A stretch of 20,465 nucleotides of DNA, from positions 1 to 20,465 of IMG/VR virus record IMGVR_UViG_3300013772_000054; one strand, 5' to 3'. Under the pieces are notes generated by a model. That model did not search any database and had not been told where the DNA came from. It saw only the letters and a program-made list of their open reading frames with translations. The stretch is from a virus. The number at the start of each line of letters is the position of its first letter. The first letter of the stretch is position 1. Made by a program: the position numbers and the translations under genes. Below are positions 4,368-18,079 of the stretch, piece by piece.

Positions 4368-4753
4368 TACGCCCAATCACCGTTGACGACCAGATGCGCC
4401 GTCCACATCGCCGGGTTCTTCGCGTCGGTCTCCTCGTCGTAGTCGAGCAGGTAGGCCGTGCCGGTCCGCGTGTCCGCGCCGAGGGTGCCTTCGGGTTTGT
4501 AGGAGATCGGCACGGTGGCTGGTGTCGTGGCGACCGAGAGCGGATGGAAGACGGCGGTCACCGTCGGATCGATCCAGCCATTCATCGTCAGGTCGGTTTG
4601 GGCCGGTCCGACCAGGCGCGCGACCTGATTGGCGCCGAGGCGCGGCAGTTGCATATCCGCGCGTTTGATCGCGGCCGTCACTTTTTCGGTGTAGGCGGAG
4701 ATATCGACCGAGTTCACGAGAATTACCGCGTCATATCCAGGACTGAATGCCAC
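4367..4753 (-). CDS. Major tail (tube) protein
   Basis: A 128-aa protein starting MAFSPGYDAVILVNSVDISAY. The beginning with a short strand, V-D-I-S-A-Y-T, and later a GWIDPT segment and TAYLLDYDEETDAKNPAMW fit small siphovirus tail tube proteins, which polymerise as hexameric rings round the tape measure protein. The start is GTG with AAGGAG eight nt upstream. Its place directly before the chaperone pair and after the tail terminator candidate is the standard order. It is short for the family (often 140-200 aa), so it probably has the minimal tube domain without an added Ig domain. Family assignment rests on position and general pattern. Confidence 0.8.
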   Translation of the reverse strand: MAFSPGYDAVILVNSVDISAYTEKVTAAIKRADMQLPRLGANQVARLVGPAQTDLTMNGWIDPTVTAVFHPLSVATTPATVPISYKPEGTLGADTRTGTAYLLDYDEETDAKNPAMWTAHLVVNGDWA

Positions 4754-4780
4754 TTGATGACTCCTTGTTCGCTTGTGCGC

Positions 4781-5236
4781 TTACGCGCGCGTGTTCCACG
4801 TTTGACGCACCCGCACAAGCAGGGCGTAGATTCGATACGACTGATCCGCGACCGTCTGATAGGCCGGGACTTTCGCGAGGCTCAGATCGAGCTCGCTGGC
4901 GATCTTGCCCGGCACGGTGCCTCCGAGCGTGCGGTCGCGATAGAAGGCCGCGATGAATGCATCAATCGCGTTGGCTAGGGTCGTTTCCGCGATCGCCTGA
5001 TTCGGCGGCATCCGGTAGCCCATGCCGATGTAGTAGGACGTGTCGCGCTGGACGAGCCCGAACGTCACGTCGGAAATCTGCTGCTCCCCGAGCGCGACGA
5101 AGGCCGAGACGCGATCTTGGAAGGCGAGCGGCGCGCCCATCGTCACGCTCTGGAGAATGGTCGAACCGTCGGGTCCTTCCAGGTTGGTGAGGAGATCGAG
5201 CAGATAGGACATCGGTCCGAGCGTGTCAAAGGGCAT
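4781..5236 (-). CDS. Probable tail terminator / tail completion protein
   Basis: A 151-aa protein, MPFDTLGPMSYLLDLLTNLEG... No catalytic motif is visible. Size, alpha/beta composition and position between the head-closure gene and the tail tube gene fit the tail terminator (lambda gpU-like), which caps the tube and joins it to the head. The N-terminal helix followed by a strand-rich middle (ISDVTFGLVQRDTSYYIGMGYR) and a C-terminal helix-strand (SYRIYALLVRVRQTW) are consistent. The start ATG overlaps the preceding stop by 1 bp (TGATG). No residue-level signature proves the function, so positional inference carries most weight. It could be another neck protein. Confidence 0.6.
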   Translation of the reverse strand: MPFDTLGPMSYLLDLLTNLEGPDGSTILQSVTMGAPLAFQDRVSAFVALGEQQISDVTFGLVQRDTSYYIGMGYRMPPNQAIAETTLANAIDAFIAAFYRDRTLGGTVPGKIASELDLSLAKVPAYQTVADQSYRIYALLVRVRQTWNTRA

Positions 5237-5601
5237 CAGACTCCGATCCCCTCGCCCGGCGTGCTCGCGTGGGCCACGTCGTAGGAACGATAGACCGTCT
5301 CACCCGCTGGCCCGCGCGCCAGGCGATCGGTGCCCGCTTTGATGTTCCACCGATGGCCATTGACCATGATTTGACTGAGCGGATCGAGAATCGTGGTCGG
5401 TTGCACGATGAGCACCCGCGACTCGATCCCTTCCGCGCGGCTCAAGCCCGCCATCGTGTCGTACCGGCTCGCTTCGGCGAGGCGGCAGGGGAGCCCGGTC
5501 GCGGTCACGACGGTGTACGCGCCGGTATTGGCGTCGGCTCCGAAGACGTTCATCACGTCGTCGTACAGAAATGCCGGGAACGTCGCCGGCCGACTGTTCA
5601 C
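5236..5601 (-). CDS. Probable head closure / head-tail connector protein
   Basis: A 121-aa protein starting MNSRPATFPAFLYDDVMNVFGAD. A small beta-barrel is likely: VVTATGLPCRLAE, SRVLIVQPTTILDPLSQIMVNGHRW and a terminal strand. The ILDPLSQIMVNGHRWNIKA stretch is like the D-x-I-xx-xG-xxYxV pattern found in head closure or stopper proteins (SPP1 gp16 / HK97 gp7 type). These seal the portal after packaging and receive the tail. The start GTG overlaps the upstream stop as GTGA, so coupled translation is likely. It lies between the gp10-like gene and the probable terminator, as expected. The assignment is by pattern and order and not by a diagnostic motif. Confidence 0.6.
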   Translation of the reverse strand: MNSRPATFPAFLYDDVMNVFGADANTGAYTVVTATGLPCRLAEASRYDTMAGLSRAEGIESRVLIVQPTTILDPLSQIMVNGHRWNIKAGTDRLARGPAGETVYRSYDVAHASTPGEGIGV

Positions 5602-6056
5602 GGCAGCACCAGGAGATTGAGCGTATTCACAATCTCATCGCTCACCTTCTGCTCGTTCTTGAGGAGTGCCGGCACCAGGAACGGCCGCGGGGCCGTGCCC
5701 GGATGGTGGACGAGCCGCACCGGGTGAAGCGCGTCCGGCCACCAGAGCGCCGCTTTATTGCGCGGCTCAATGATGTGCGGTCGCGTGCCTTCCTCCATCA
5801 TCCGTCCGTAGTCGAGATCGGTCCCGACCTGAACATCGCAATGGACCCGATCGACCTCTTTGACCTCGGAATGGATCGACCGGCGAAGCGTGCCGGTTCG
5901 CACCGGAGCGGCTTCCTGGGCCGCGTTGACGACGATCTGCGCGCCGGCCAGGGTCGCCGTCCGGAGCGCGAGGGTCGCACCCGAGTCGGAAAGCGCGCCC
6001 AGCCTCGCGGCCAGGTCGCGGGTCCCCGAGACGGTGACGACAAAGCCGTAGGCCAT
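5598..6056 (-). CDS. HK97 gp10-like tail completion protein
   Basis: A 152-aa protein with the recognisable HK97 gp10 layout. An N-terminal segment is followed by a helix with AQIVVNAAQEAAPVRTGTLR, then a beta segment with GTDLDYGRMMEEGTRPHIIEP, a K-A-L-like segment, and HPGTAPRPFLVPAL with a final helix. The APVRTGTLR, YG..xEEGT and HPG..PRPFLxPA motifs together are characteristic of the family, which acts at the head-tail junction. The start ATG overlaps the previous stop by 1 bp and its own stop overlaps the next start by 4 bp. This tight coupling supports joint expression with the neighbouring connector genes. Confidence 0.88.
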   Translation of the reverse strand: MAYGFVVTVSGTRDLAARLGALSDSGATLALRTATLAGAQIVVNAAQEAAPVRTGTLRRSIHSEVKEVDRVHCDVQVGTDLDYGRMMEEGTRPHIIEPRNKAALWWPDALHPVRLVHHPGTAPRPFLVPALLKNEQKVSDEIVNTLNLLVLP

Positions 6057-6451
6057 CAGACCGCTCCCCGCTGGAATTGCTCGACGAGCCGTTCCCGTTC
6101 GCCCGAGACGTTCTCGACCATCTCGGCCCAGTCGAAGTCTGTTCCCGCTTCCGCGGCCGCTTCGTCGGCGCTCACCTGGGCCCGCAAGCTCGTCGCGTGC
6201 AGGCGCAAGGCGACGGCCAACTTTGGGCCGTCGGTCGTCAGGTCGAGGATCTTGATTGCCTTCTGAGTCAGGGCTTCATTGGTCGCGATGGTGTCGAGTG
6301 CCTGCGCCGCGCCCAATTTGATGTTGTCGTTTTCCATCGACAGGAACGCGGCGAGCTCCTCGTCCTGGAAGATCGGGTTCGCCACGTCGGAGTCGGAGAT
6401 GATCAGTCGCGTCACCCCAACATCGGTCCCCAGGTTATAGGTGACCGACAT
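6056..6451 (-). CDS. Head-tail connector (gp6-like adaptor)
   Basis: A 131-aa, mostly helical protein. The pattern is an N-terminal region (VGVTRLIISDSD), a FQDEELAAFLSMENDNIKLGAAQALDTIA helix pair, then a helix with KILDLTTDGPKLAVALRLHATSLR and a C-terminal helix. That corresponds to the gp6-like adaptor family that binds the underside of the portal ring and connects it to the closure protein. It follows the capsid genes and precedes the gp10-like gene, the usual position. Start ATG and the previous stop share bases (TAATG). The function follows from helical pattern and context; no enzymatic motif is expected. Confidence 0.75.
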   Translation of the reverse strand: MSVTYNLGTDVGVTRLIISDSDVANPIFQDEELAAFLSMENDNIKLGAAQALDTIATNEALTQKAIKILDLTTDGPKLAVALRLHATSLRAQVSADEAAAEAGTDFDWAEMVENVSGERERLVEQFQRGAV

Positions 6452-6783
6452 TAGAGACTGATCGCGGCCACGGTGACGGACGTCACGGCGGAAAAGTCGA
6501 CCTGGACTAAGCCGCCGGTCGTGTTGAACGGGTACGCCGGGAAGCTGCCGATATACCCCTCCTCAGCGGCGGCAATCGCCACGACGACCGGCGTCACGAC
6601 GTAACCGCCAGCCGTGCCTCCCGGCGTAATCGTGACGTTGATCGAGCTGGCCGAACCGTTTTTCACGATCAGGGCGGTCCGGCCGTTATTGACGATGGTG
6701 TGGCCGAGCGCGTCGGCCGCGGTGAAGGCGGCGTTGAGGCCGGCCACGACGGCCGGCTGAACGGCAAGAACACTACGAGCCAT
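6451..6783 (-). CDS. Small capsid-associated protein, hypothetical
   Basis: A 110-aa protein starting MARSVLAVQPAVVAGLNAAF. It is a beta-rich domain with strands such as ALIVKNGSASSINVTITP and LVQVDFSAVTSVTVAAISL and a YPFNTTGG loop, suggesting a small beta-sandwich. It has no cysteine and almost no charge. AAAGGAG upstream of ATG 6783 is one of the strongest ribosome sites in the window, implying high expression. Small beta proteins placed between the major capsid gene and the connector genes are often virion structural components such as decoration proteins. I cannot name a family. Expression strength and location suggest a structural role; this is inference. Confidence 0.7.
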   Translation of the reverse strand: MARSVLAVQPAVVAGLNAAFTAADALGHTIVNNGRTALIVKNGSASSINVTITPGGTAGGYVVTPVVVAIAAAEEGYIGSFPAYPFNTTGGLVQVDFSAVTSVTVAAISL

Positions 6784-6786
6784 CGG

Positions 6787-6942
6787 TCAGGCTCCTTTCG
6801 ACGCGAGGCGTCTAGGCGGTTGCGTCTTGGTCGTTGGCGGGAGAGCGGTCTGCTTTGGTTGGAGAGCGAGCCGGATGGCGCGGAGCTCGGCCAGGATGGC
6901 GTCGAGTCGCTGCTCCACGCCATCACGCGCGGGAGGGAGCAT
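6787..6942 (-). CDS. 51-aa microprotein behind the capsid gene
   Basis: A short frame from ATG 6942, overlapping the capsid stop as TAATG, to 6787. The product MLPPARDGVEQRLDAILAEL... has one amphipathic helix (about residues 8-28) followed by a Pro/Thr/Lys/Arg-rich tail ending RRLASKGA. The same frame is open much farther upstream, but there it is only the capsid gene read out of frame. The TAATG overlap and exact filling of the gap up to the next gene support translation by coupling. I do not recognise it; a small capsid-interacting or regulatory peptide is conceivable. Confidence 0.55.
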   Translation of the reverse strand: MLPPARDGVEQRLDAILAELRAIRLALQPKQTALPPTTKTQPPRRLASKGA

Positions 6943-8123
6943 TACGCCGAGCTTCCGTTCGACGCCACGGCCATTTTTGTGTCGAGTGCTGTTCCTCCCA
7001 GAACTGATCTCACCTTGTACTCGATCGAGTCGTTGAGGAAATCCCCTTGCATCGCATCCTCGCCGCCGCCGACGAGTCGCTGGTTCGGATTCTTGATGAA
7101 CACTTCCGGCGTTTCGTGGCCGCGCAGGAAGCCAATCTCGAAGGCCGGTCGTCCGGTCTTCGGGCTCGCGACCATGTACCAGGTCGTGTTCCCGTTCGTC
7201 GTCGAGACGATTGGCAGATAGTAATCGACGTTCAGATGGATCCGATTCTTCATCCAGTTCGCGACGTGGACCTGCTCGGTCGCGGTGCCACCGGCGCCGG
7301 ATAGCCACAGCTCCGTGGCGTTCAGGATGTTCAGCGCCGACACTTCGAGCGCGGGGGGCACGATCAACTCGACCGCGTCGATGAAGATCGGCTCGCCGTC
7401 CAGGTCCTTCTGCTGAGCCAGCACGGCGAAACCGTCCTGGAGCCCGGCAATCGAGAGCGGCGGATTGACGATCCCACCGATCGCGCCGTTCGTCGGATTG
7501 ATGATGTTCTTGTTGCCGACCGTGAAAAAGGTGCTGTTGAAACCGGCTGCCCCAGCGAGGAGCTGGGTCGCGAACTTCTCCTCGGTGCGCCGCGCCGCCA
7601 CGCCGAAGCGCATCGGAATGTCGCGCAATGCGCCCAGGTCGTCGTTCATGATCGCTTCCCACGAGAACGGGATCCGGCGACCATATTTCGAGACCTTGTA
7701 GGCGTACTGGAGGTCGGTCAGCTTGGATTCGGGGTATTCGTCTTGCTCGGGCACGATCGCCAGAGTCGCCTCTGCCCCGTTGATGGCAAAGCGGTGAACG
7801 GTTCGGAAGTCAGTCACGGTCGAGATGTGACACCAGTTCCGATAGGTCGCGTTGGTGTCGCGGTAGTTCTGCAACAGTTGGCGGTCCAGCACGTCGCCGA
7901 ACAGGTACGGGAAGTCGCTGGTGGTCATCGCCTCTTGCAGTTGATACAACGGGCGACGGCCCTTGTACACGTCGGCGATGAAGCCGGCAGCCTCGCTGAT
8001 CGCGGCGAGGTAGCGCGGGTCCTGGCGGCGGAGACTCCCGGCCGAGCGGCCTTCGCCGCCGAAGAGGGCCTGAACGCTCGCCTTGTCCTGGCTCACGGTC
8101 TCCAGGAGTTGAAGAAATTCCAT
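6942..8123 (-). CDS. Major capsid protein (HK97 fold)
   Basis: A 393-aa protein from ATG 8123 (MEFLQLLETVSQ). TAGAAAGGATC at 8140-8130 is an extended Shine-Dalgarno and fixes this start; the TTG at 8147 lies upstream of it. Recognisable features are an N-terminal helix (about the first 60 residues, possibly an N-arm or delta region), the segment GDVLDRQLLQNYRDTNATYR, then KYGRRIPFSWEAIMNDDLGAL and a final strand EYKVRSVLGG. These are typical of capsid proteins of the Mu gpT-like/HK97-fold group. The protein forms the icosahedral shell and associates with the cement protein encoded upstream. An intrinsic terminator ends only some 26 nt before the start codon. The stop overlaps the start of a 51-aa microprotein. 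Confidence 0.92.
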   Translation of the reverse strand: MEFLQLLETVSQDKASVQALFGGEGRSAGSLRRQDPRYLAAISEAAGFIADVYKGRRPLYQLQEAMTTSDFPYLFGDVLDRQLLQNYRDTNATYRNWCHISTVTDFRTVHRFAINGAEATLAIVPEQDEYPESKLTDLQYAYKVSKYGRRIPFSWEAIMNDDLGALRDIPMRFGVAARRTEEKFATQLLAGAAGFNSTFFTVGNKNIINPTNGAIGGIVNPPLSIAGLQDGFAVLAQQKDLDGEPIFIDAVELIVPPALEVSALNILNATELWLSGAGGTATEQVHVANWMKNRIHLNVDYYLPIVSTTNGNTTWYMVASPKTGRPAFEIGFLRGHETPEVFIKNPNQRLVGGGEDAMQGDFLNDSIEYKVRSVLGGTALDTKMAVASNGSSA

Positions 8124-10531: not shown

Positions 10532-10864
10532 TTAGGTGGCGACAATCTGAATCCACGTTTTCGCCGGACTGTTGGGAATCGTGACTCGCGTTCCATCGCC
10601 GAAGATGATCAGGAATTCGGCCAGGTAGTCACCAACCAGAGCGGTATCGGTCGGCTGCCAGCCATACGAGATATTCCCAGCCGTTTTCGGGGTGAGGATC
10701 GCGCAGGCGACCGATAGATAGAAGGCGTTGAGCCATTTCGAGCGGAGAATCAGCGTCACGCTCGTGGCGTTCGTCAGGTCGATTGGTCCGTTGACGTCGT
10801 CGAGTGTGCGCGTCAGGACCGGCAAAGTATCGCCCTGGCCGATCGTGAAATCTGGTATCGTCAT
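10532..10864 (-). CDS. Small beta-sandwich protein, BppU N-domain-like
   Basis: A 110-aa protein starting MTIPDFTIGQGDTLPVLTRTL. The sequence follows a common phage domain: DFTI-x-QGDT-P-L at the N-terminus, GPIDLTNATSVTLILRSK, then ISYGWQPTDTALVGDYLAEFLIIFGDGTRVTIPN. The same pattern is found at the N-terminus of baseplate upper proteins (BppU-like) and as stand-alone virion proteins, and has an Ig-like fold that attaches appendages to the virion. ATG 10864 overlaps the stop of the large repeat protein gene by 4 bp (ATGA), so the two are probably coupled and may act together, one as anchor and one as appendage (inference). Confidence 0.78.
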   Translation of the reverse strand: MTIPDFTIGQGDTLPVLTRTLDDVNGPIDLTNATSVTLILRSKWLNAFYLSVACAILTPKTAGNISYGWQPTDTALVGDYLAEFLIIFGDGTRVTIPNSPAKTWIQIVAT

Positions 10865-13101
10865 CCGTCCCTCGTCCGACCGCTATTTCCTGAGTCACTG
10901 GTCCGTCCGCCGACGCCGACAAGATCCGTCTTGCCGGTGGAGCCGCTGACTCGGGTCTGTCCGAACAGACCGGCGAGTCGGGTCAATCCCGCCTGGCCGA
11001 TCATCCGGAGAGGCTCGACGAGCGGCGGATGATTGCCGTTCAGGAGACGGGTGAGGCTCGCGGCCACGGCCTTGAATGACCGCGCCATCTGACGACTCAC
11101 GGTGTCCGATGCACTGCTGACCGCGGCGAGGGTACGCGCGCTCTGGCGAGCCAGAAGGGCGCTCGTGGCCGCGTTGCCCGCGAGCGTTCTCCCGATCGAG
11201 CGCGTCAGGTTCGTGGCTGTTCCCGCGACCGCCGCGAGGACGTGCCCGAATGCTCGACTCACGGTTGCCGTACCGATTGCCGAGACGCTGAGAGAACGCG
11301 CCACCTGCCGCAAGACCATCGCCGCGCTCGCGGCTGATCCGCTGAACGTCCTGGCCAGTTGCCGGCTCACGGTCGCCAGGCTTCCGCTCGCGGCAGAGAG
11401 GAAGCGCGACGGTGAGCGAGAGGCCGTCGCGATGCTGGCCGCGACCGTCGTCATCGTCCTGGCCGGTACTCGGAGCAGAGTGCCGATGGCGGCGCTCGCC
11501 GCGGCCTCGGTGCGCGCAACGGCGCGCGTTAGGAAAAGAGGGTAGACGCCCGCGACATAGGTAGCCCCGGTGATCCCCCCGTTGTAGCCATTCGGCCCCG
11601 AGTCCAGTGCCGTCGTGCCGCTGCCCTCGTCGAAGCGGTAGCGAAGCTGGAGACTGGTCGTGGACGGCTCGACGCCCTGGTAGAGCGACAGGATCTCCGC
11701 CGCCGAGAGCAGACGACCGTACAACGCCAGATTGTCGAGATAGCCGTCAAACGCGCGGTTGCCGGTCGACGTCGTATTGCCGATGACGATCGGCGTATTG
11801 GCGCTCGACGCCAGCGTTCCGGTCGGTGTCGCCACCGTCGTGACGGTGACGGCCACACCATTGACGTAGAACACCGGGACATTCGCGAGCGAGCTGTTGT
11901 CGTAGGTCAGCGCGACGTGGATCCACCGATTCAACAGCGCCGACGTGTCGATCGTCCATAGCCCGTTCGTGCCATTCGTCTGCTGGGCGTATCCCAGTCG
12001 ATCAGGCGTCCCGAAACACTGAAAAGCCAGGCCGTTTCGGACCAGCACCCGTCCGCCGGTGCCGCCACCCGACGACCGGATATACAGCCACCCGGCAGTC
12101 GTCATCTGCGAGAGCGTGCCGACCGCGGTCATCCCGGAGACAGCCACGTTGTCGGTCGTGACCCCGCCGGCGAATTGAAGCGCGGTCCGCGTGCCCTGGG
12201 CGCTCACCGCCGAGAGGGTTCGGGACAGCGCGCGTTGGATCGTCACCCCCCCGGGTGACGTGGTGGCGAAGAGTCGGCCGACGGCTCGAACGGGTAGCGT
12301 TGCCAGGGAAGCCGATACGACCCCGAGGACTTTACCCGGCGTGCGCGTGATTGTTGCCAGACCGGCGCTCGTCGCGGCCAGGGTCAACGTGAAAGCGTGC
12401 GCGCCGCCATTGACGACGGATGCGACCGTGGCCAGGCTCGCGCTCGCTGCCGATAGGACGCGGCTGAGACCACGGCCGATCGTGGCCGACGATGCAGAGG
12501 TTGTGCTTTGGATCCGGGTGAGTGCGCGTGGTCCAAGACTCGCCGCGCTCGCGCTCGCCGCTGCCAGAGTCCGACCAGGACCACGGATAATAGTTGCCGT
12601 TGCCGCACTCGCGGCGCTGAGCGTTCGCGGGATTGCTTTGTTGACTGTCGCCAGGCCCGCACTCGTACTGGCCAGGAGCCTGGTCAGGCCGCGTCCGATG
12701 GTGGCCGTGCTCGCACTCGCCGCCGTCAGGCTCCGGGCGAGCAGGCGTGGCCCCAGGGTCGAGACGGATGTGCTCACGGCGGAGAGGGTACGTCCCGGCG
12801 AGCGGAGCAGGTTCGCTGCCGATGCCGACGTGGCGGCCAGGATGCGACCAGAACCACGGATGATGCTGGCCGTCGCCGCCGACGTTGCCGCGAGAATCCG
12901 ACTCGGGGCGCGGACAAGCGCCGCGATACCCGCGCTGGTCGCCCCGAGGATGCGGGTCATGCCGCGCGCAACCGTGGCGACCGAGGCCGAAACCGCGACG
13001 AGGGTCTGAAAGTAGGCGGCTGGCCCGCCGCTCAGAAACGGAAGGATGCTCGGACGCCGCACACTCGGTCGGGGCGGTTGGCGATAGACCCCGCCCGGCA
13101 T
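10861..13101 (-). CDS. LamG-like protein with 18-residue tandem repeats
   Basis: A 746-aa protein. Residues 31-304 hold 15 copies of an 18-residue repeat, consensus xRxLxAxSASxATxxRxx, often with Pro-Gly at the joint. Residues about 305-523 form a concanavalin-A/LamG-like jelly roll: WLYIRSS, GLWTIDTSALLNRWIHVALTYD, FYVNGV, FDGYLDNLALYGRLLSAAEI, then LQLRYRFDEGSGTTALDSGPNG. Residues 529-688 hold nine more copies, and 701-745 five 9-residue repeats xGxxGxTxx. The N-terminal repeat block has no Asp or Glu and many Arg, so it is strongly basic. LamG domains bind glycans or polysaccharides; a virion appendage is likely. The gene is in the head module and not behind the tape measure gene. ATG follows the preceding TAA directly. 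No signal peptide is evident. Confidence 0.88.
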   Translation of the reverse strand: MPGGVYRQPPRPSVRRPSILPFLSGGPAAYFQTLVAVSASVATVARGMTRILGATSAGIAALVRAPSRILAATSAATASIIRGSGRILAATSASAANLLRSPGRTLSAVSTSVSTLGPRLLARSLTAASASTATIGRGLTRLLASTSAGLATVNKAIPRTLSAASAATATIIRGPGRTLAAASASAASLGPRALTRIQSTTSASSATIGRGLSRVLSAASASLATVASVVNGGAHAFTLTLAATSAGLATITRTPGKVLGVVSASLATLPVRAVGRLFATTSPGGVTIQRALSRTLSAVSAQGTRTALQFAGGVTTDNVAVSGMTAVGTLSQMTTAGWLYIRSSGGGTGGRVLVRNGLAFQCFGTPDRLGYAQQTNGTNGLWTIDTSALLNRWIHVALTYDNSSLANVPVFYVNGVAVTVTTVATPTGTLASSANTPIVIGNTTSTGNRAFDGYLDNLALYGRLLSAAEILSLYQGVEPSTTSLQLRYRFDEGSGTTALDSGPNGYNGGITGATYVAGVYPLFLTRAVARTEAAASAAIGTLLRVPARTMTTVAASIATASRSPSRFLSAASGSLATVSRQLARTFSGSAASAAMVLRQVARSLSVSAIGTATVSRAFGHVLAAVAGTATNLTRSIGRTLAGNAATSALLARQSARTLAAVSSASDTVSRQMARSFKAVAASLTRLLNGNHPPLVEPLRMIGQAGLTRLAGLFGQTRVSGSTGKTDLVGVGGRTSDSGNSGRTRDG
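10867..11001 (-). repeat. Five 27-bp period repeats at the C-terminus
   Basis: Residues 701-745 read IGQAGLTRL, AGLFGQTRV, SGSTGKTDL, VGVGGRTSD, SGNSGRTRD. This is a clean 9-residue period, half the period of the main repeat, with Gly at positions 2 and 5 and Thr at 7 (or nearby). Confidence 0.8.
11038..11517 (-). repeat. 54-bp period repeats, C-terminal block (9 copies)
   Basis: Nine further 18-residue units follow the LamG-like domain, for example ARTMTTVAASIATASRSP and SRFLSAASGSLATVSRQL. They share Arg at positions 2 and 16 with the first block, but Ala/Ser positions are more varied. Confidence 0.82.
12190..13011 (-). repeat. 54-bp period repeats, N-terminal block (15 copies)
   Basis: The encoded protein repeats every 18 residues, for example TRILGATSAGIAALVRAP and GRILAATSASAANLLRSP. 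A few units have 19 or more residues (GRTLSAVSTSVSTLGPRLL). The DNA copies have diverged and conserve only short words. Confidence 0.85.
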
Positions 13102-13560
13102 TTACTCCAGCTCTCGGAACTTGACTTGGGCGGTGAACGTGCCAGTTACAGCAACTGGCAGCTTCAAGCCAACAATGCCGCTAGGGGGCACCGGAATGCG
13201 CTCCTCGGGCACCGGCAAGTAGAGCCAGGGTGCCAGAAAATTAAACACGTCTTGCTCGACAATGTCGCTATCGGTGCCTTCGGCTGACGCGGTGATGCCG
13301 GTCGCCGTCGTGCCGCCAACCGCCTTGGCCGCGTTATCGCCACGAGCAATGGGGATTGGAGTGAACGCGGCCACGGTTGCCGCCGCGCTCTTGAAATTGA
13401 TCTGCACCGGCACCATCGTGCTCGTCGTTGAAAGGTGCTGGGCGACCTTGGCCGAGACGATCTCCAAGCCAGAGCTTGCGCCCGCCACGATCTGAATCAA
13501 GGTCAGCGCCGTGGTCGATGCCACCCGAGTCAGGTTGACGACGTAAAGGCGGCTGGCCAT
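13102..13560 (-). CDS. Hypothetical virion protein
   Basis: A 152-aa protein starting MASRLYVVNLTRVASTTALTLIQI. The composition is beta-rich and Ala/Thr-rich, with strands such as LTLIQIVAGASSGLEIVSAKVA, TMVPVQINFK and a C-terminal GIVGLKLPVAVTGTFTAQVKF. Between them are FNFLAPWLYLPVPEERIPVP and a DIVEQDVFNF segment, whose aromatic and proline residues look like a loop presented from a beta sandwich. Its TAA is followed immediately by the ATG of the repeat protein. I do not recognise the family. Position suggests a virion surface or appendage component. Confidence 0.75.
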   Translation of the reverse strand: MASRLYVVNLTRVASTTALTLIQIVAGASSGLEIVSAKVAQHLSTTSTMVPVQINFKSAAATVAAFTPIPIARGDNAAKAVGGTTATGITASAEGTDSDIVEQDVFNFLAPWLYLPVPEERIPVPPSGIVGLKLPVAVTGTFTAQVKFRELE

Positions 13561-13563
13561 CGG

Positions 13564-14202
13564 TCACATCCTGTAGACGGTGAAGTTTTGACGGGTCTGA
13601 TACTCGTTCGGCTGCATTGCGCCGTCGTCGGCGCTCAGGTTGGTCAGGTGATAGCTCGTCGTATCCGTGGCCGCCCCTGCCCCAAAACGTACCCCGACTC
13701 GTCCGGCCGCGGTGATCGTGCTATCGGTCGCCGTGACGGTCGAGACGCCATTGACCAGGAGTGTGAGAGCCGAGCCGACAATCGAGAACGTCAGGGTGTA
13801 GGTGTTCCCCACGGTTAAGGTCGCCGCGGCGCTTGCCAGGATAGTACCTTTGCCTGCTACAGATTTGGCAATCACCCACGAGAGAGTCGATCCCCGATAG
13901 CCGCTGATATAACTCGTGTCTGCTGCCGTGTCTAAGCGCAAAGATGGTCCCATCTCACCCGTGGTCGTCGTGATCGACGCGATGAACATATCCGCCGCCA
14001 TCACCTGATCTGGCCCGGCCGGGACGTTGCTCACGTAATAGATCGGGGCGGTGGTCGTCATCTGGCGAATCCGATTCGCGCTGGAGATGCCCGCGGTGCC
14101 CGTCGTGACCGTGTTTTTGATCCACGATCCCCCGACCTGCGGCGCGTGAGCGTTGAGGAGCACGCCCGCGGTGTCCACGGTGTTGTCCGAGAGGATCTGC
14201 AC
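13564..14202 (-). CDS. Jelly-roll (concanavalin-A-like) structural protein
   Basis: A 212-aa protein from GTG 14202 (MQILSDNTVDTAGVLLNAHAP). The N-terminal strand is followed by GGSWIKNTVTTGTAGISSANRIR and repeated short strands. The region with VGNTYTLTFSIVGSALTLLVNGVSTVTATDSTITAAGRVGVRFG is the usual back half of a concanavalin-A-like beta sandwich, as in LamG or 3-keto-disaccharide hydrolase-type domains of phage proteins. No catalytic residues can be assigned, so carbohydrate binding is more likely than hydrolysis. It is the second lectin-like protein of the cassette. A clear ribosome site is not visible; only two bases separate it from the upstream stop, so coupling is likely. Confidence 0.78.
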   Translation of the reverse strand: MQILSDNTVDTAGVLLNAHAPQVGGSWIKNTVTTGTAGISSANRIRQMTTTAPIYYVSNVPAGPDQVMAADMFIASITTTTGEMGPSLRLDTAADTSYISGYRGSTLSWVIAKSVAGKGTILASAAATLTVGNTYTLTFSIVGSALTLLVNGVSTVTATDSTITAAGRVGVRFGAGAATDTTSYHLTNLSADDGAMQPNEYQTRQNFTVYRM

Positions 14203-14204
14203 GG

Positions 14205-14606
14205 CTAGGCCGAGAAGTTGTTGGCGTCGAAATGGGTGTCGAGGAATTGACCGATGGCGTTGACGATCTGGCGCATCGTCGTCTGATGATTGATAAACGC
14301 CGTCGAGATTCCGAGCGTGGTCATTTCTGACTGAACCGCCGTTTGGATCGCGTGCGACACGGTGGACCAGAGCGCGTCAAGCGTGATCTGCGGCAACGGA
14401 TGATTCGTCGTGTCGTTGACCACGGTCGTGAGATCGACCGCATCGACCATGCAGATGCCCCAGGCAAACAGCGGCAAGCCGGTCGTCGGACTGCTCGGAA
14501 TGATCGACGTGCTCGATCCGCCAGCGATCTGATCGGTTGCATTGAGTCGAATCGGGTCTGCATCGGTGCCGGTGCCGATGACGGGCGAGATAACGTACTG
14601 CTGCAT
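14205..14606 (-). CDS. Hypothetical phage protein
   Basis: A 133-aa protein starting MQQYVISPVIGTGTDADPIR. The N-terminal half is beta/loop-like (FAWGICMVDAVDLTTVVND) and the C-terminal half is helical (LDALWSTVSHAIQTAVQSEM, MRQIVNAIGQFLDTHFDANNF). Mixed composition suggests a small globular virion protein; similar GTGTDADPIRP starts are common in phage proteins encoded beside tail fibre genes. The start ATG lies 3 nt after the upstream TAA, with GGCGGAT as a weak ribosome site. No family recognised. Confidence 0.75.
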   Translation of the reverse strand: MQQYVISPVIGTGTDADPIRLNATDQIAGGSSTSIIPSSPTTGLPLFAWGICMVDAVDLTTVVNDTTNHPLPQITLDALWSTVSHAIQTAVQSEMTTLGISTAFINHQTTMRQIVNAIGQFLDTHFDANNFSA

Positions 14607-14609
14607 GAT

Positions 14610-14990
14610 TTATCCGCCGGTCCATTGGGTCTTCCAGGTATACGTTATGGAATCCCCGTTGATCAGGTTCAGCGCAGCGAAGGTGCCGCGATTCGCCATA
14701 TTGCCGGTCGTCAGCGCGTCGAACGTGCCCGACTCGGTGATTGCCTGGGTCGAGCCGCTGGAGACGGTTCCGACCACCTGAAGGGTATCGTTGGTCGCGG
14801 TCGTGGTCACACGCGTCGGCGTTCCGACCGCACGCGCATCAGCCGAGGCCGTGCCCAGCGCGGTATCCGTGACCGCCGGCGCGACGACGCCGACCCCGTG
14901 GCCGATCCACTTGGGCACGGTGCCACCAAGGCCGGAGACGAGGTTACTGAAGATTGCGAGGCCCGCGTTGACGACCATCGGATTTGCCAA
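14610..14990 (-). CDS. Virion structural protein, fibre-associated type
   Basis: A 126-aa protein starting at TTG 14990 (MANPMVVNAGLAIFSNLVSGLGG). GGAAGGAG six nt upstream makes this non-ATG start convincing. The pattern is an N-terminal amphipathic helix (GLAIFSNLVSGLGG), PKWIGHGVGVVAPAVTDTALG, repeated Thr-rich strands (TRVTTTATNDTLQVVGTVSS), ITESGTFDA and a final strand NGDSITYTWKTQWTGG. This layout is frequent in small phage proteins near appendage genes, where it is assumed to be a virion or fibre component; its exact function is not known. It is the third gene of the accessory cassette, and its Thr/Ala bias matches the neighbours. Confidence 0.78.
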   Translation of the reverse strand: MANPMVVNAGLAIFSNLVSGLGGTVPKWIGHGVGVVAPAVTDTALGTASADARAVGTPTRVTTTATNDTLQVVGTVSSGSTQAITESGTFDALTTGNMANRGTFAALNLINGDSITYTWKTQWTGG

Positions 14991-15492: not shown

Positions 15493-16359
15493 TCAGACTC
15501 CCGGAGCGCGCTTCAGCCGAAGGACGCAACGGCACTTCGGGTGCGCTAACGGCCGATCGTGGCCCGATTGAAAGACTTGATCGAGCGGAATCCAGCCCTC
15601 GGCCTCGTTCGGCTCGCACTGGTTCGGGTCGACGAGCTCGTCGTGAACCGTCAGCCAGGACTTCAGCATCGGCACGCCCGCCGCCTGTAATTCTTGAGCG
15701 GCGGCTAAACTCCCCGCGCTGTAGGCGTTCCCGGCTTCGGTCACCGCGATCAGTCGCGCCCGCTCGGCGCTCATCGTCGCGAACGCCTGCCGGAGCTGGC
15801 CGGCGATGGTGTCGTAACTGAGTCCCTGATCGACGCCGTCGGTGACAATCGTGCGGATCTGGGCGCGCGTCGTCTCGTCGATCTGGCGCACTCGATCCGC
15901 GCCGTACCGCGTCAGATAATGCACCGCGCGCGGATTGGCGAGGTCGAACGAGACGCCGACCGTCGCAGTCACGTCGGCTGCCGGAGCCGTCAGCATCGGC
16001 ACACGCGAGACGGTCACGCCCAGGTCAGCCAGCGTCTCCGTGGCACCTGCCAGCAGGGAGGCGGACGCGAGCTCGTCGATCGCGTCGATCAGGAGTGCAT
16101 CGACCATGAGCGCGGCGGTATCGAACGCCCGTTGCCAGTCATTCGTCGACTCAGTCTCGCGAAAGGCGGATCGGAGCCGGGCGAATCCTTCGAGGAACAT
16201 CTGCCCTTGCTGGCGAAATGCCGCCGCTATTTTACGGTCGGCCCGGTCGACGAGATGACCGAGCTTTCGATTGCGAATCAACGGCGCGGCATCGCTCAGA
16301 AAGCGCTCGACGATGGCGAGCGTTGCCGTGGCCGCGGCTCGCCGGTTCTCAGCCAGCAA
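15493..16359 (-). CDS. Phage head morphogenesis protein, MuF/SPP1 gp7-like
   Basis: About 288 aa. The C-terminal third carries the MuF-domain signature: SAERARLIAVTEAGNAYSAG, KSWLTVHDELVD, a Cys (NQCEPNEAEGW), and AHPKCRCVLRL at the end. The N-terminal two thirds are helical. Members are minor head proteins bound to the portal, often injected with the DNA. No ATG or GTG lies near the portal stop. The likeliest start is TTG 16359, overlapping the portal end by 11 nt, or the adjacent CTG 16356; AGG lies about 7 nt upstream. The frame stays open to 16761, but that part is a shadow of the portal gene (Arg-rich). Start uncertain, product call firm. Confidence 0.87.
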   Translation of the reverse strand: MLAENRRAAATATLAIVERFLSDAAPLIRNRKLGHLVDRADRKIAAAFRQQGQMFLEGFARLRSAFRETESTNDWQRAFDTAALMVDALLIDAIDELASASLLAGATETLADLGVTVSRVPMLTAPAADVTATVGVSFDLANPRAVHYLTRYGADRVRQIDETTRAQIRTIVTDGVDQGLSYDTIAGQLRQAFATMSAERARLIAVTEAGNAYSAGSLAAAQELQAAGVPMLKSWLTVHDELVDPNQCEPNEAEGWIPLDQVFQSGHDRPLAHPKCRCVLRLKRAPGV

Positions 16360-18079
16360 GGAGCGCCTGCAAGCTGGCTCGCATCTCCCGGACCGCCTCG
16401 ACCATCGCCGCTTCGTTATTAGCGCGGGCGTCCGCCGCCGTCGGCGCGCCGCCGCCCTTCTCCGCACTGCCGCCCTGCCCCGTCGACGCCAGTCGTCGCG
16501 CGCTGGTCGATGCGGGCTCGACGGGTGGCGCGGGCGGCAGAAGCGGCATACCCTCCTCGGGAGCCAGCCGGTCGAGCATCTGGTCGATGTCGTCTTCGGC
16601 GAGCGCCTGCAAGAGGAGCCGAACCGCGGTCTGCTTGTCGAACGTGCCGGCCGATCCGAATCCGTTGAGCGTGACCGCCGACACGACCGCCTCGACGCGC
16701 TCTTTAGCATCGCGCTCGAGCATCGGCGGGAAGTTGACCTCGACGATCGACGAGCGCTCATCGCCGGTCTCCGGGTTCAGCCCGTAGTCCCACGTTTCCT
16801 CGCCGTCCTGATCGTAGGTCAACGTCCCCTGCACCGTGCCGCCGAGTGCGGCCGCGGACCGTTCGATGGCGAAGGCCAGGATGTCTTTGAAGATGTCCGA
16901 CCAGAGCACCTGACGGTCGCGCATCTTCAATTCGGTCGGCCGGTCGAGCGTCTTGGCGGTCGCGTGAGATCCCACGCTTGCCTCGCCGAAGAACGTTTCA
17001 GGCAATCCCATCGCGCTGGCGACCATGAGCCAAAGTCGGCGGCCTTCGTCGGTGTTCGGTTGCGCGCCGACGGTCTTGATCGGGTTGAGCTGGGTTCCCT
17101 CGCCAGCGATGAACATCGATCCCGTGCCCGGCGGCGGGTTGGTCTCGATAAATGCGTCGCTCGTGGTCCCGATCGTCGTATTCATTTTGGTCTTCGCCGC
17201 GGCAACGCCTTTCGCGCCCCCCTTGGTCGTCATATTCCAAGCGAAGCGGGAGAGCGCGCGCTTGACGGTCGCGTAGTCTTCGAGGTCCGACTTGACCGCG
17301 CGAGCCCAGTCGAGCGCGGCGTAAATCTCTGGCACGCCAAAGCGCATATCGCGCAACCCACCCGTCTTGACGTGATACACCGGAATATCCCAATGGACCG
17401 TCGATGTGCCGATCGTCGCGGGCCGGGTGGCCGGCTGGTAACGCCAGTCGGGATAGTAGGCGATCTCGATGTTGTCACGGGTGATGCCGTTCTGAACGTC
17501 GAGGATGGCCCGGGTGTACTGGCGTTTGTAGTACCACGGCTCCTGACCGTCGTCCGGGTTGGTGATGATCTCGAGGACCTCATCGACCGGGATCGACCGG
17601 ACCCGCACGGTGCCGCTCGCCGGCCGAGTGAAGAAGCAGAAGAACAGATTGCCGGTGACGTGCAATTCCTTTTCACGCGACATGCGCGCTTCGTGGCTGG
17701 TCAGCTCGGATTGGTTCGACTTGTCGGCGAGGAACGCCTGGACGACCAGGTTGATCTCGTCATCGGGCGACCGAATGTCAACGCCCTGCCCCCAGACGTA
17801 ATACGCCTGGACGTTGACGCCTCGCTGGATCAGCGGGTTCTTGAGGTACGACAGCCGCGCGAGGCGGAGGATGCGCTTGAGTCCGTCGCGACTGAAGTCG
17901 CGATCGTTGTACGCGGCCTCGCGGAGCCACATGGCATCTTCGGTCGCAAACTCGAGCTCGGCGATGCGCTCGCTTAGGCCGACCGAGCGGTAGCCGTCAT
18001 CCGACTCGTGGACGCGGCCATTCGTCGGCCAGGGCTGGGGCGCCAGCAGGCCGGTCGAAGATTCGACGTAGTTGGGCAA
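16349..18079 (-). CDS. Portal protein
   Basis: A 576-aa protein beginning at TTG 18079 (MPNYVESSTGLLAPQPW), with GAGG about 6 nt upstream. The main part shows portal-like features: LSYLKNPLIQRGVNVQAYYVWGQGVDI early, an N-terminal clip/stem region with KELHVTGNLFFCFF, PVDEVLEIITNPDD, DIPVYHVKTG, and MVASAMGLPETFFGEAS followed by HATAKTLDRPTELKM. Portal proteins form the dodecameric ring through which DNA is packaged and ejected. The C-terminus (about residues 500-576) is Pro/Ala/Gly-rich and likely flexible. The terminase large subunit lies 11 nt upstream and the MuF protein overlaps its end, the standard order. Confidence 0.93.
   Translation of the reverse strand: MPNYVESSTGLLAPQPWPTNGRVHESDDGYRSVGLSERIAELEFATEDAMWLREAAYNDRDFSRDGLKRILRLARLSYLKNPLIQRGVNVQAYYVWGQGVDIRSPDDEINLVVQAFLADKSNQSELTSHEARMSREKELHVTGNLFFCFFTRPASGTVRVRSIPVDEVLEIITNPDDGQEPWYYKRQYTRAILDVQNGITRDNIEIAYYPDWRYQPATRPATIGTSTVHWDIPVYHVKTGGLRDMRFGVPEIYAALDWARAVKSDLEDYATVKRALSRFAWNMTTKGGAKGVAAAKTKMNTTIGTTSDAFIETNPPPGTGSMFIAGEGTQLNPIKTVGAQPNTDEGRRLWLMVASAMGLPETFFGEASVGSHATAKTLDRPTELKMRDRQVLWSDIFKDILAFAIERSAAALGGTVQGTLTYDQDGEETWDYGLNPETGDERSSIVEVNFPPMLERDAKERVEAVVSAVTLNGFGSAGTFDKQTAVRLLLQALAEDDIDQMLDRLAPEEGMPLLPPAPPVEPASTSARRLASTGQGGSAEKGGGAPTAADARANNEAAMVEAVREMRASLQALLAG

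Follow-up and report, generated by a model that had tools for sequence, protein, structure and literature searches.

A basic array of 18-residue repeats with an inserted lectin-type domain as a candidate shaft of a viral surface fibre

The fibre I/fibre-tail-adaptor cassette of podophage GP4 comprises Gp80 (PF23140) and Gp77 (PF23148; PDB ID: 8jou), and Bcep22-like phages keep the same gene order around a middle gene, i.e., gp55-gp56-gp57 in BcepIL02 and gp53-gp54-gp55 in JC1. Mass spectrometry of purified JC1 virions detected the Gp80 and Gp77 homologues gp53 and gp55; gp54, encoded between them, is absent from the list of detected proteins (PMC9144972). In Anabaena phage A-1(L), gp82-gp81-gp80 make up a long repetitive fibre that is hooked to the neck and carries a distal carbohydrate-binding module (PMC10966104). 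Lactococcal siphophages carry BppU and a neck passage structure, and carbohydrate-binding modules on the virion assist adsorption; the text searched on these two appendages describes no 18-residue array (PMC9863714). Here, we report a gene for a repeat protein in a virus record from IMG/VR that is 20,465 bases long (the whole stretch that was analysed, hereafter the window). We propose, with a probability of roughly 0.58, that its product is the shaft of a fibre on the virion surface which is anchored through an adaptor at the neck or tail and presents exchangeable lectins; such a fibre would most likely belong to an undescribed class.

The genes of the window run on the minus strand in the order TerL, portal, MuF-type head protein, small genes with the array gene, prohead protease, major capsid protein, and a long tape-measure-like protein (Table 1). 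By portal and capsid, the nearest named virus is Methanoculleus virus L4768/Blf4 (41–42% identity), which infects an archaeon and has only three genes separating portal and capsid and carries no array. The window portal (16349–18079) is 93 to 96% identical to those of four short IMG/VR contigs (L011–L014), none of which reaches the array, and no array was found in the 14 loci retrieved via capsid or portal proteins (L003–L016), several of which are short contigs. Two of the small genes upstream of the array gave faint signals: gene 13564–14202 has a weak LamG_3 match below the cut-off (E = 0.014), and gene 13102–13560 aligned with the gene just upstream of the L149 and L160 arrays at an hhalign probability of 18%.

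Table 1. Coordinates of the array gene, its parts, and its cassette partners (window positions unless a locus is named)
Feature	Position	Strand	Remarks
BppU_N-like small protein	10532–10864	−	overlaps end of array gene; in many relatives, homologues lie immediately after the array
Array protein with inserted LamG domain, 746 aa	10861–13101	−	ATG start, ORF 13101 to 10861
C-terminal Gly/Ser/Thr/Arg tail, residues 691–746	10864–11031	−	like tails of L137, L157
Block B, 9 units, residues 523–690	11032–11535	−	low-confidence helices in model
LamG (concanavalin-like) region, residues 301–522	11536–12201	−	Pfam PF13385 at residues 316–470
Block A, 15 units, residues 32–300, without Asp/Glu	12202–13008	−	predicted two short β-strands per unit, pLDDT mostly 70–88
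N-terminus, short, basic, Pro-rich, residues 1–31	13009–13101	−	leaders alike in L149, L150, L160
Three small genes between Gp80-like gene and array	13102–14606	−	13102–13560, 13564–14202, 14205–14606
Gp80 (podophage GP4 fibre I)-like protein	14610–14990	−	upstream cassette partner
BppU_N-like protein with head-tail adaptor-like C-terminal fusion	L106:2971–3960; L099:625–1572		also L149, L107, L150 by alignment

The original prediction counted about 24 copies of the repeat, 15 and 9 on the two sides of a LamG-like domain, and our count is the same, with the first core of block A near residue 32 and the last near residue 294, and block B lying between about residues 530 and 674. BLOSUM62 autocorrelation peaked at lag 18 in block A, with a value of 1.00 compared with a mean of 0.09 and a maximum of 0.41 for the best lag in 1000 shuffles. 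The values for block B were 1.46 (lag 18) and 1.57 (lag 54, i.e., 3 × 18), with a shuffle maximum of 0.61. The period had been described as near-constant; 18 is indeed dominant, but occasional longer linkers occur so that it is not strictly kept, the spacing in block A being 18 except for single values of 19, 19, 25, and 19, and that in block B being 18 throughout. The unit consensus is R-T-L-A/S-A-T-S-A-S-x-A-T-L/I/V-x-R-x-x-G. An Arg near each end of most units and a first block free of Asp and Glu had also been noted, and both features are borne out: Arg occupies unit position 0 in 18 and position 14 in 15 of the 21 aligned units, and the 274 residues from 27 to 300 contain 26 Lys plus Arg and not a single Asp or Glu (P ~1e-13 relative to the 10.3% Asp plus Glu in the other window genes). 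The net charge of the full chain is +49. Pairs of units share on average 44% of their nucleotides and 34% of their residues, and at identical residues their codons agree in 34% of cases, against a chance expectation of 33%. Codon agreement at chance excludes a recent tandem expansion or duplication of units and indicates that they are old copies held by selection, i.e., the amino acid pattern is, to judge from codon usage, old and maintained. Together with the homologues described below, this selection also rules out a spurious reading frame or an artefact of composition.

Between the blocks, LamG_3 (PF13385) matched over profile positions 4 to 150 of 151 with E = 1.7e-18 and 67.7 bits against a curated cut-off of 27.6, and on this profile match the predicted LamG-like region is a Laminin_G_3/concanavalin-like lectin domain. 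After the match lies YRFDEGSGTTALDSGPNGYNGG (window 11497–11650, residues about 485–535), which we take to be a motif that usually precedes LamG_3 domains; it is possibly a truncated second LamG copy or part of a permuted domain. LamG_3 was found elsewhere in a gene near the L122 array (1.5e-9) and in one further array protein (9e-12). In relatives, the β-sandwich or lectin-like module is N-terminal, inserted, located in a nearby gene, or not recognised, and most members of the family have no lectin recognised by Pfam. LamG is therefore variable among relatives and was rejected as a defining element of the family. The earlier idea of an arm presenting a lectin holds insofar as the lectin-type domain is real, but a lectin is not a constant part across relatives; the constant partners are instead a Gp80 homologue and a gene for a BppU_N or Gp77 adaptor.

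Working from shallow alignments, AlphaFold predicted two short β-strands in each unit of block A, with a pLDDT that self-fragments among the alignment rows of the window model may have raised (Table 1), and for the L150 array, modelled with homologues, an all-β structure of two strands per unit (pLDDT 60–69). Block B was modelled as helices of low confidence (pLDDT up to 73) and the LamG domain was not folded (about 30), presumably because homologues were lacking. A repeated fold is predicted for block A, and from these models we regard the repeat as probably β-structured. Foldseek found no PDB match with E < 0.001 for the array models, the best being left-handed β-helix enzymes (E at least 0.23, TM about 0.1); among predicted viral proteins, the uncharacterised phage protein A0A6J7VQK1 is a good fold match (E = 3.5e-5, 24% identity).

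BLAST searches of 50,697 phage records with the protein or its repeats gave no matches, most likely owing to masking of the repeats by low-complexity filters. Relatives were sought with degenerate DNA patterns (three units at 54-base spacing) followed by a profile HMM filter; the first pattern returned mostly 9-residue and collagen-like repeats and was tightened afterwards. These scans identified some 20 homologous arrays on viral contigs, whose cores read, for example, KTLTATVTSTATMVRSVG or RTLTASATGIATLVRSLS, so that homologues of the same period, which the original prediction proposed to seek in viral metagenomes, do exist. Applied to bacterial and archaeal genomes (257 Gb), a closely matching pattern, which catches 14 of the 23 known arrays, produced 109 matches, none of them an array. 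The repeat family is common in uncultured viral DNA and not private to the window virus. Despite this commonness, no Pfam, PHROG, or PDB entry describing this repeat was among those found, standard searches most likely having been defeated by the same kind of filter.

The family trait is a period of 18 with a conserved R/K-x-L-x-A core, which the window array fits. Lys plus Arg make up 5 to 13% of 22 arrays and Asp plus Glu mostly at most 1%, and 45 arrays found via Gp80 have a mean of 11.2% Lys plus Arg and a median of 0.0% Asp plus Glu; these values come from HMM-covered residues only, with a bias toward typical units. The basic, acid-poor character is accordingly kept across homologous arrays, and so are Lys/Arg near the unit ends. 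Many members have a longer unit (19–21 residues) every third (L106, L149, L122, L099) or fourth copy (L088, L134), a pattern that is regular in some arrays (L106, L088, L149) and not in all (L129, L306); the window array has it twice, four units apart. Rather than structure, the super-repeat could mirror a duplication of blocks of 56 or 74 residues. Several arrays end in short G/S/T/R-rich repeats, e.g., GRTSDSGNSGRTRDG (window 10864–11031, L137, L157), possibly a contact site for the adaptor.

Three named phages have an array in the cassette arrangement. In MW202796, a Gp80-like gene is followed by the array UOF82047.1 and a gene with a Gp77 match (31.2 bits, cut-off 27). In MW202615.1 (L277), a 1000-residue array frame on the plus strand (4710–7709) is unannotated, and the gene called over the same stretch is on the opposite strand (UOF79353.1, 5774–7585, minus), probably a misannotation. 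The third is QIG66716.1 of Rhizobium phage RHph_TM16 (L278:9188–14173, 1661 aa), a phage recorded with the bacterial host Rhizobium sp. R693; the protein, annotated only as "DUF4082 domain-containing", consists of an array, modules that look by eye like β-sandwiches, and another array, with periods of 18 and 56.

The Gp80-like gene of the window has homologues beside arrays in L058, L106, L122, L150, and L166. Its own match to PF23140 is weak and below the Pfam cut-off (E = 0.046), and its identity rests on these homologues: the window protein matches those of L106 and L150 with 9e-16 and 1e-14, five of the six Gp80-like array neighbours scanned match PF23140 (best 6.3e-9), and the family profile weakly matches PDB 8jou. 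On these matches we assign it as a homologue of Gp80 (GP4 fibre I). Among the best 80 of 433 Gp80-like viral loci, 57 have an array on the same strand, a count that is not fully independent since a few contigs had been found earlier via the repeat, and in many loci the array frame begins 3 to 24 bp past the Gp80-like frame or match. A Gp77- or BppU-like gene lies within 2.5 kb downstream of 37 of the 70 arrays with room for it, usually overlapping the array frame. The downstream gene of the window is of the BppU_N-like type, not Gp77, although many relatives do have Gp77; BppU_N (PF10651) is matched by four of eight family members (best 1.5e-4); the window member is not one of them and is assigned through its homologues. 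Merging the BppU-like and Gp77-like proteins into one family was rejected, as their profiles do not match each other. A single Gp77 match among 34 proteins of A9, suspected to be an array-Gp77 fusion, could be assigned to no member and was not used as evidence. L106 and L099 carry the BppU-like part in fusion with a head-tail adaptor (phrog_442, E ~1e-13 and 1e-10), which suggests anchoring of an appendage on the connector. Cassette and array family alike are established here from sequence.

From this we propose the following picture. The units would stack into an elongated basic arm, which the downstream BppU_N/Gp77-type protein would anchor to the virion, perhaps at the neck; the LamG module on the arm would bind a host-surface glycan, and the arm, with a surface that is positive and free of acids, would more readily lie along anionic envelope polymers in early, reversible adsorption. 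The parts of this picture differ in strength. It is quite likely, judging from the neighbours, that the array protein is a fibre component attached to the virion, and anchoring of the array by an adaptor seems probable. Placement at the neck rather than the tail tip is tentative, and is suggested because relatives have the BppU_N-like domain joined to a head-tail adaptor. Actual contact with an anionic polymer we hold to be possible but doubtful, polyanion binding by the array, which the original prediction had raised for an acidic envelope polymer or DNA, being a reasonable reading of the family-wide exclusion of acids. It is rather unlikely, though worth stating, that the arrays form a widespread, undescribed class of fibres, i.e., an 18-residue acid-free β-unit of which every third or fourth copy is longer, encoded near fibre-I and adaptor genes, with a positive arm along anionic host envelope polymers and exchangeable lectins for specificity. 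If the array is a fibre, it would account for what lies between fibre I and the adaptor in many viruses, and would provide a modular shaft for lectins and give basic repeats without acids a part in the adsorption of phages.

Other readings have to be weighed against a fibre shaft. The array may be a pure spacer that has no binding role and holds the LamG or another module off the virion, its charge serving solubility only. The wide variation of array length, the exchange of modules, and the scarcity of Pfam-recognised lectins would fit such a spacer; however, arrays that differ greatly in composition keep their near-zero acid content, beyond what solubility needs, and Lys/Arg near the unit ends are conserved, so that we consider this reading unlikely, if not strongly so. 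An interior role in the head, in which the basic array would coat packaged DNA or exit with it and the LamG domain would be incidental, draws on the lack of acids in block A, the net charge of the chain, and the location of the gene between the MuF-type head gene and the prohead protease. We find it improbable, since the conserved neighbours are homologues of fibre-I and fibre-tail-adaptor proteins, not DNA proteins, lectin or β-sandwich modules recur with the array, and the gene position varies, the array gene preceding TerL in L134 and L160 but tail genes in L106 and L099.

Similarly improbable is an α-helical repeat, in which the blocks would be long helices or helical hairpins of a coiled arm. 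The original prediction had pointed out that 18 residues equal five helical turns, and block B is modelled as helices. Nevertheless, block A and the L150 homologue are modelled as β, which disfavours the five-turn reading; in addition, small and hydrophobic residues alternate, Pro/Gly occur at the joints, and some relatives are rich in Thr and Val (L106, L314) or in Ser and Thr (L319, L360). The idea of a product outside the virion, e.g., an adhesin secreted or displayed on the cell surface during infection, agrees with the absence of JC1 gp54, which occupies the equivalent slot, from the proteins reported for virions. Yet structural genes surround the array gene in all contexts that were examined, and BcepIL02 gp56, likewise in the equivalent slot, is annotated as virion-associated, which makes this the least credible of the readings.

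A fibre shaft also has to be set against the described systems. The window cassette follows the GP4-type order, i.e., Gp80-like protein, repeat protein, and small adaptor, with a BppU_N-like protein where the GP4-type cassette has Gp77. In BcepIL02, JC1, POI1126, and Itty13, a protein of about 280 to 290 residues lies between the Gp80 and Gp77 homologues, and a significant period of 20 residues, as opposed to 18 in the window array, occurs in BcepIL02 gp56 (L280:8278–9135) and POI1126_16 (L284:5270–6112), the units of the latter having paired Arg. BcepIL02 gp56 gave no significant match to the array HMM (E = 0.063) and has no Pfam match; no PDB chain matched the middle protein, and no lectin domain was found in the slot protein of Bcep22-like phages. 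We therefore claim for the gp56-type protein and the array an equivalent position, with homology not proven.

β-Solenoids with 18 residues per coil include the RTX β-roll and the left-handed β-helix, and they have both the period and the here predicted β-structure in common with the array. The RTX β-roll, however, is built of Gly-rich, calcium-binding GGxGxDxUx nonapeptides; the window array has no such Gly-Asp motif, and membership is ruled out by the absence of Asp from block A. For the left-handed β-helix, the Foldseek matches of the window array are not significant. Compared by description, the neck fibre of A-1(L) likewise combines a repetitive fibre with a carbohydrate-binding module, but its repetition comes from a separate bead protein, which is trimeric and present in about 14 copies, whereas the window protein repeats an 18-residue unit along a single chain. 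A BppU_N-type anchor, putative in the window cassette, is common to it and the appendages of lactococcal siphophages; lactococcal BppU sits on the baseplate protein Dit, whereas the window gene is in the head region and the domain in relatives is fused to a head-tail adaptor.
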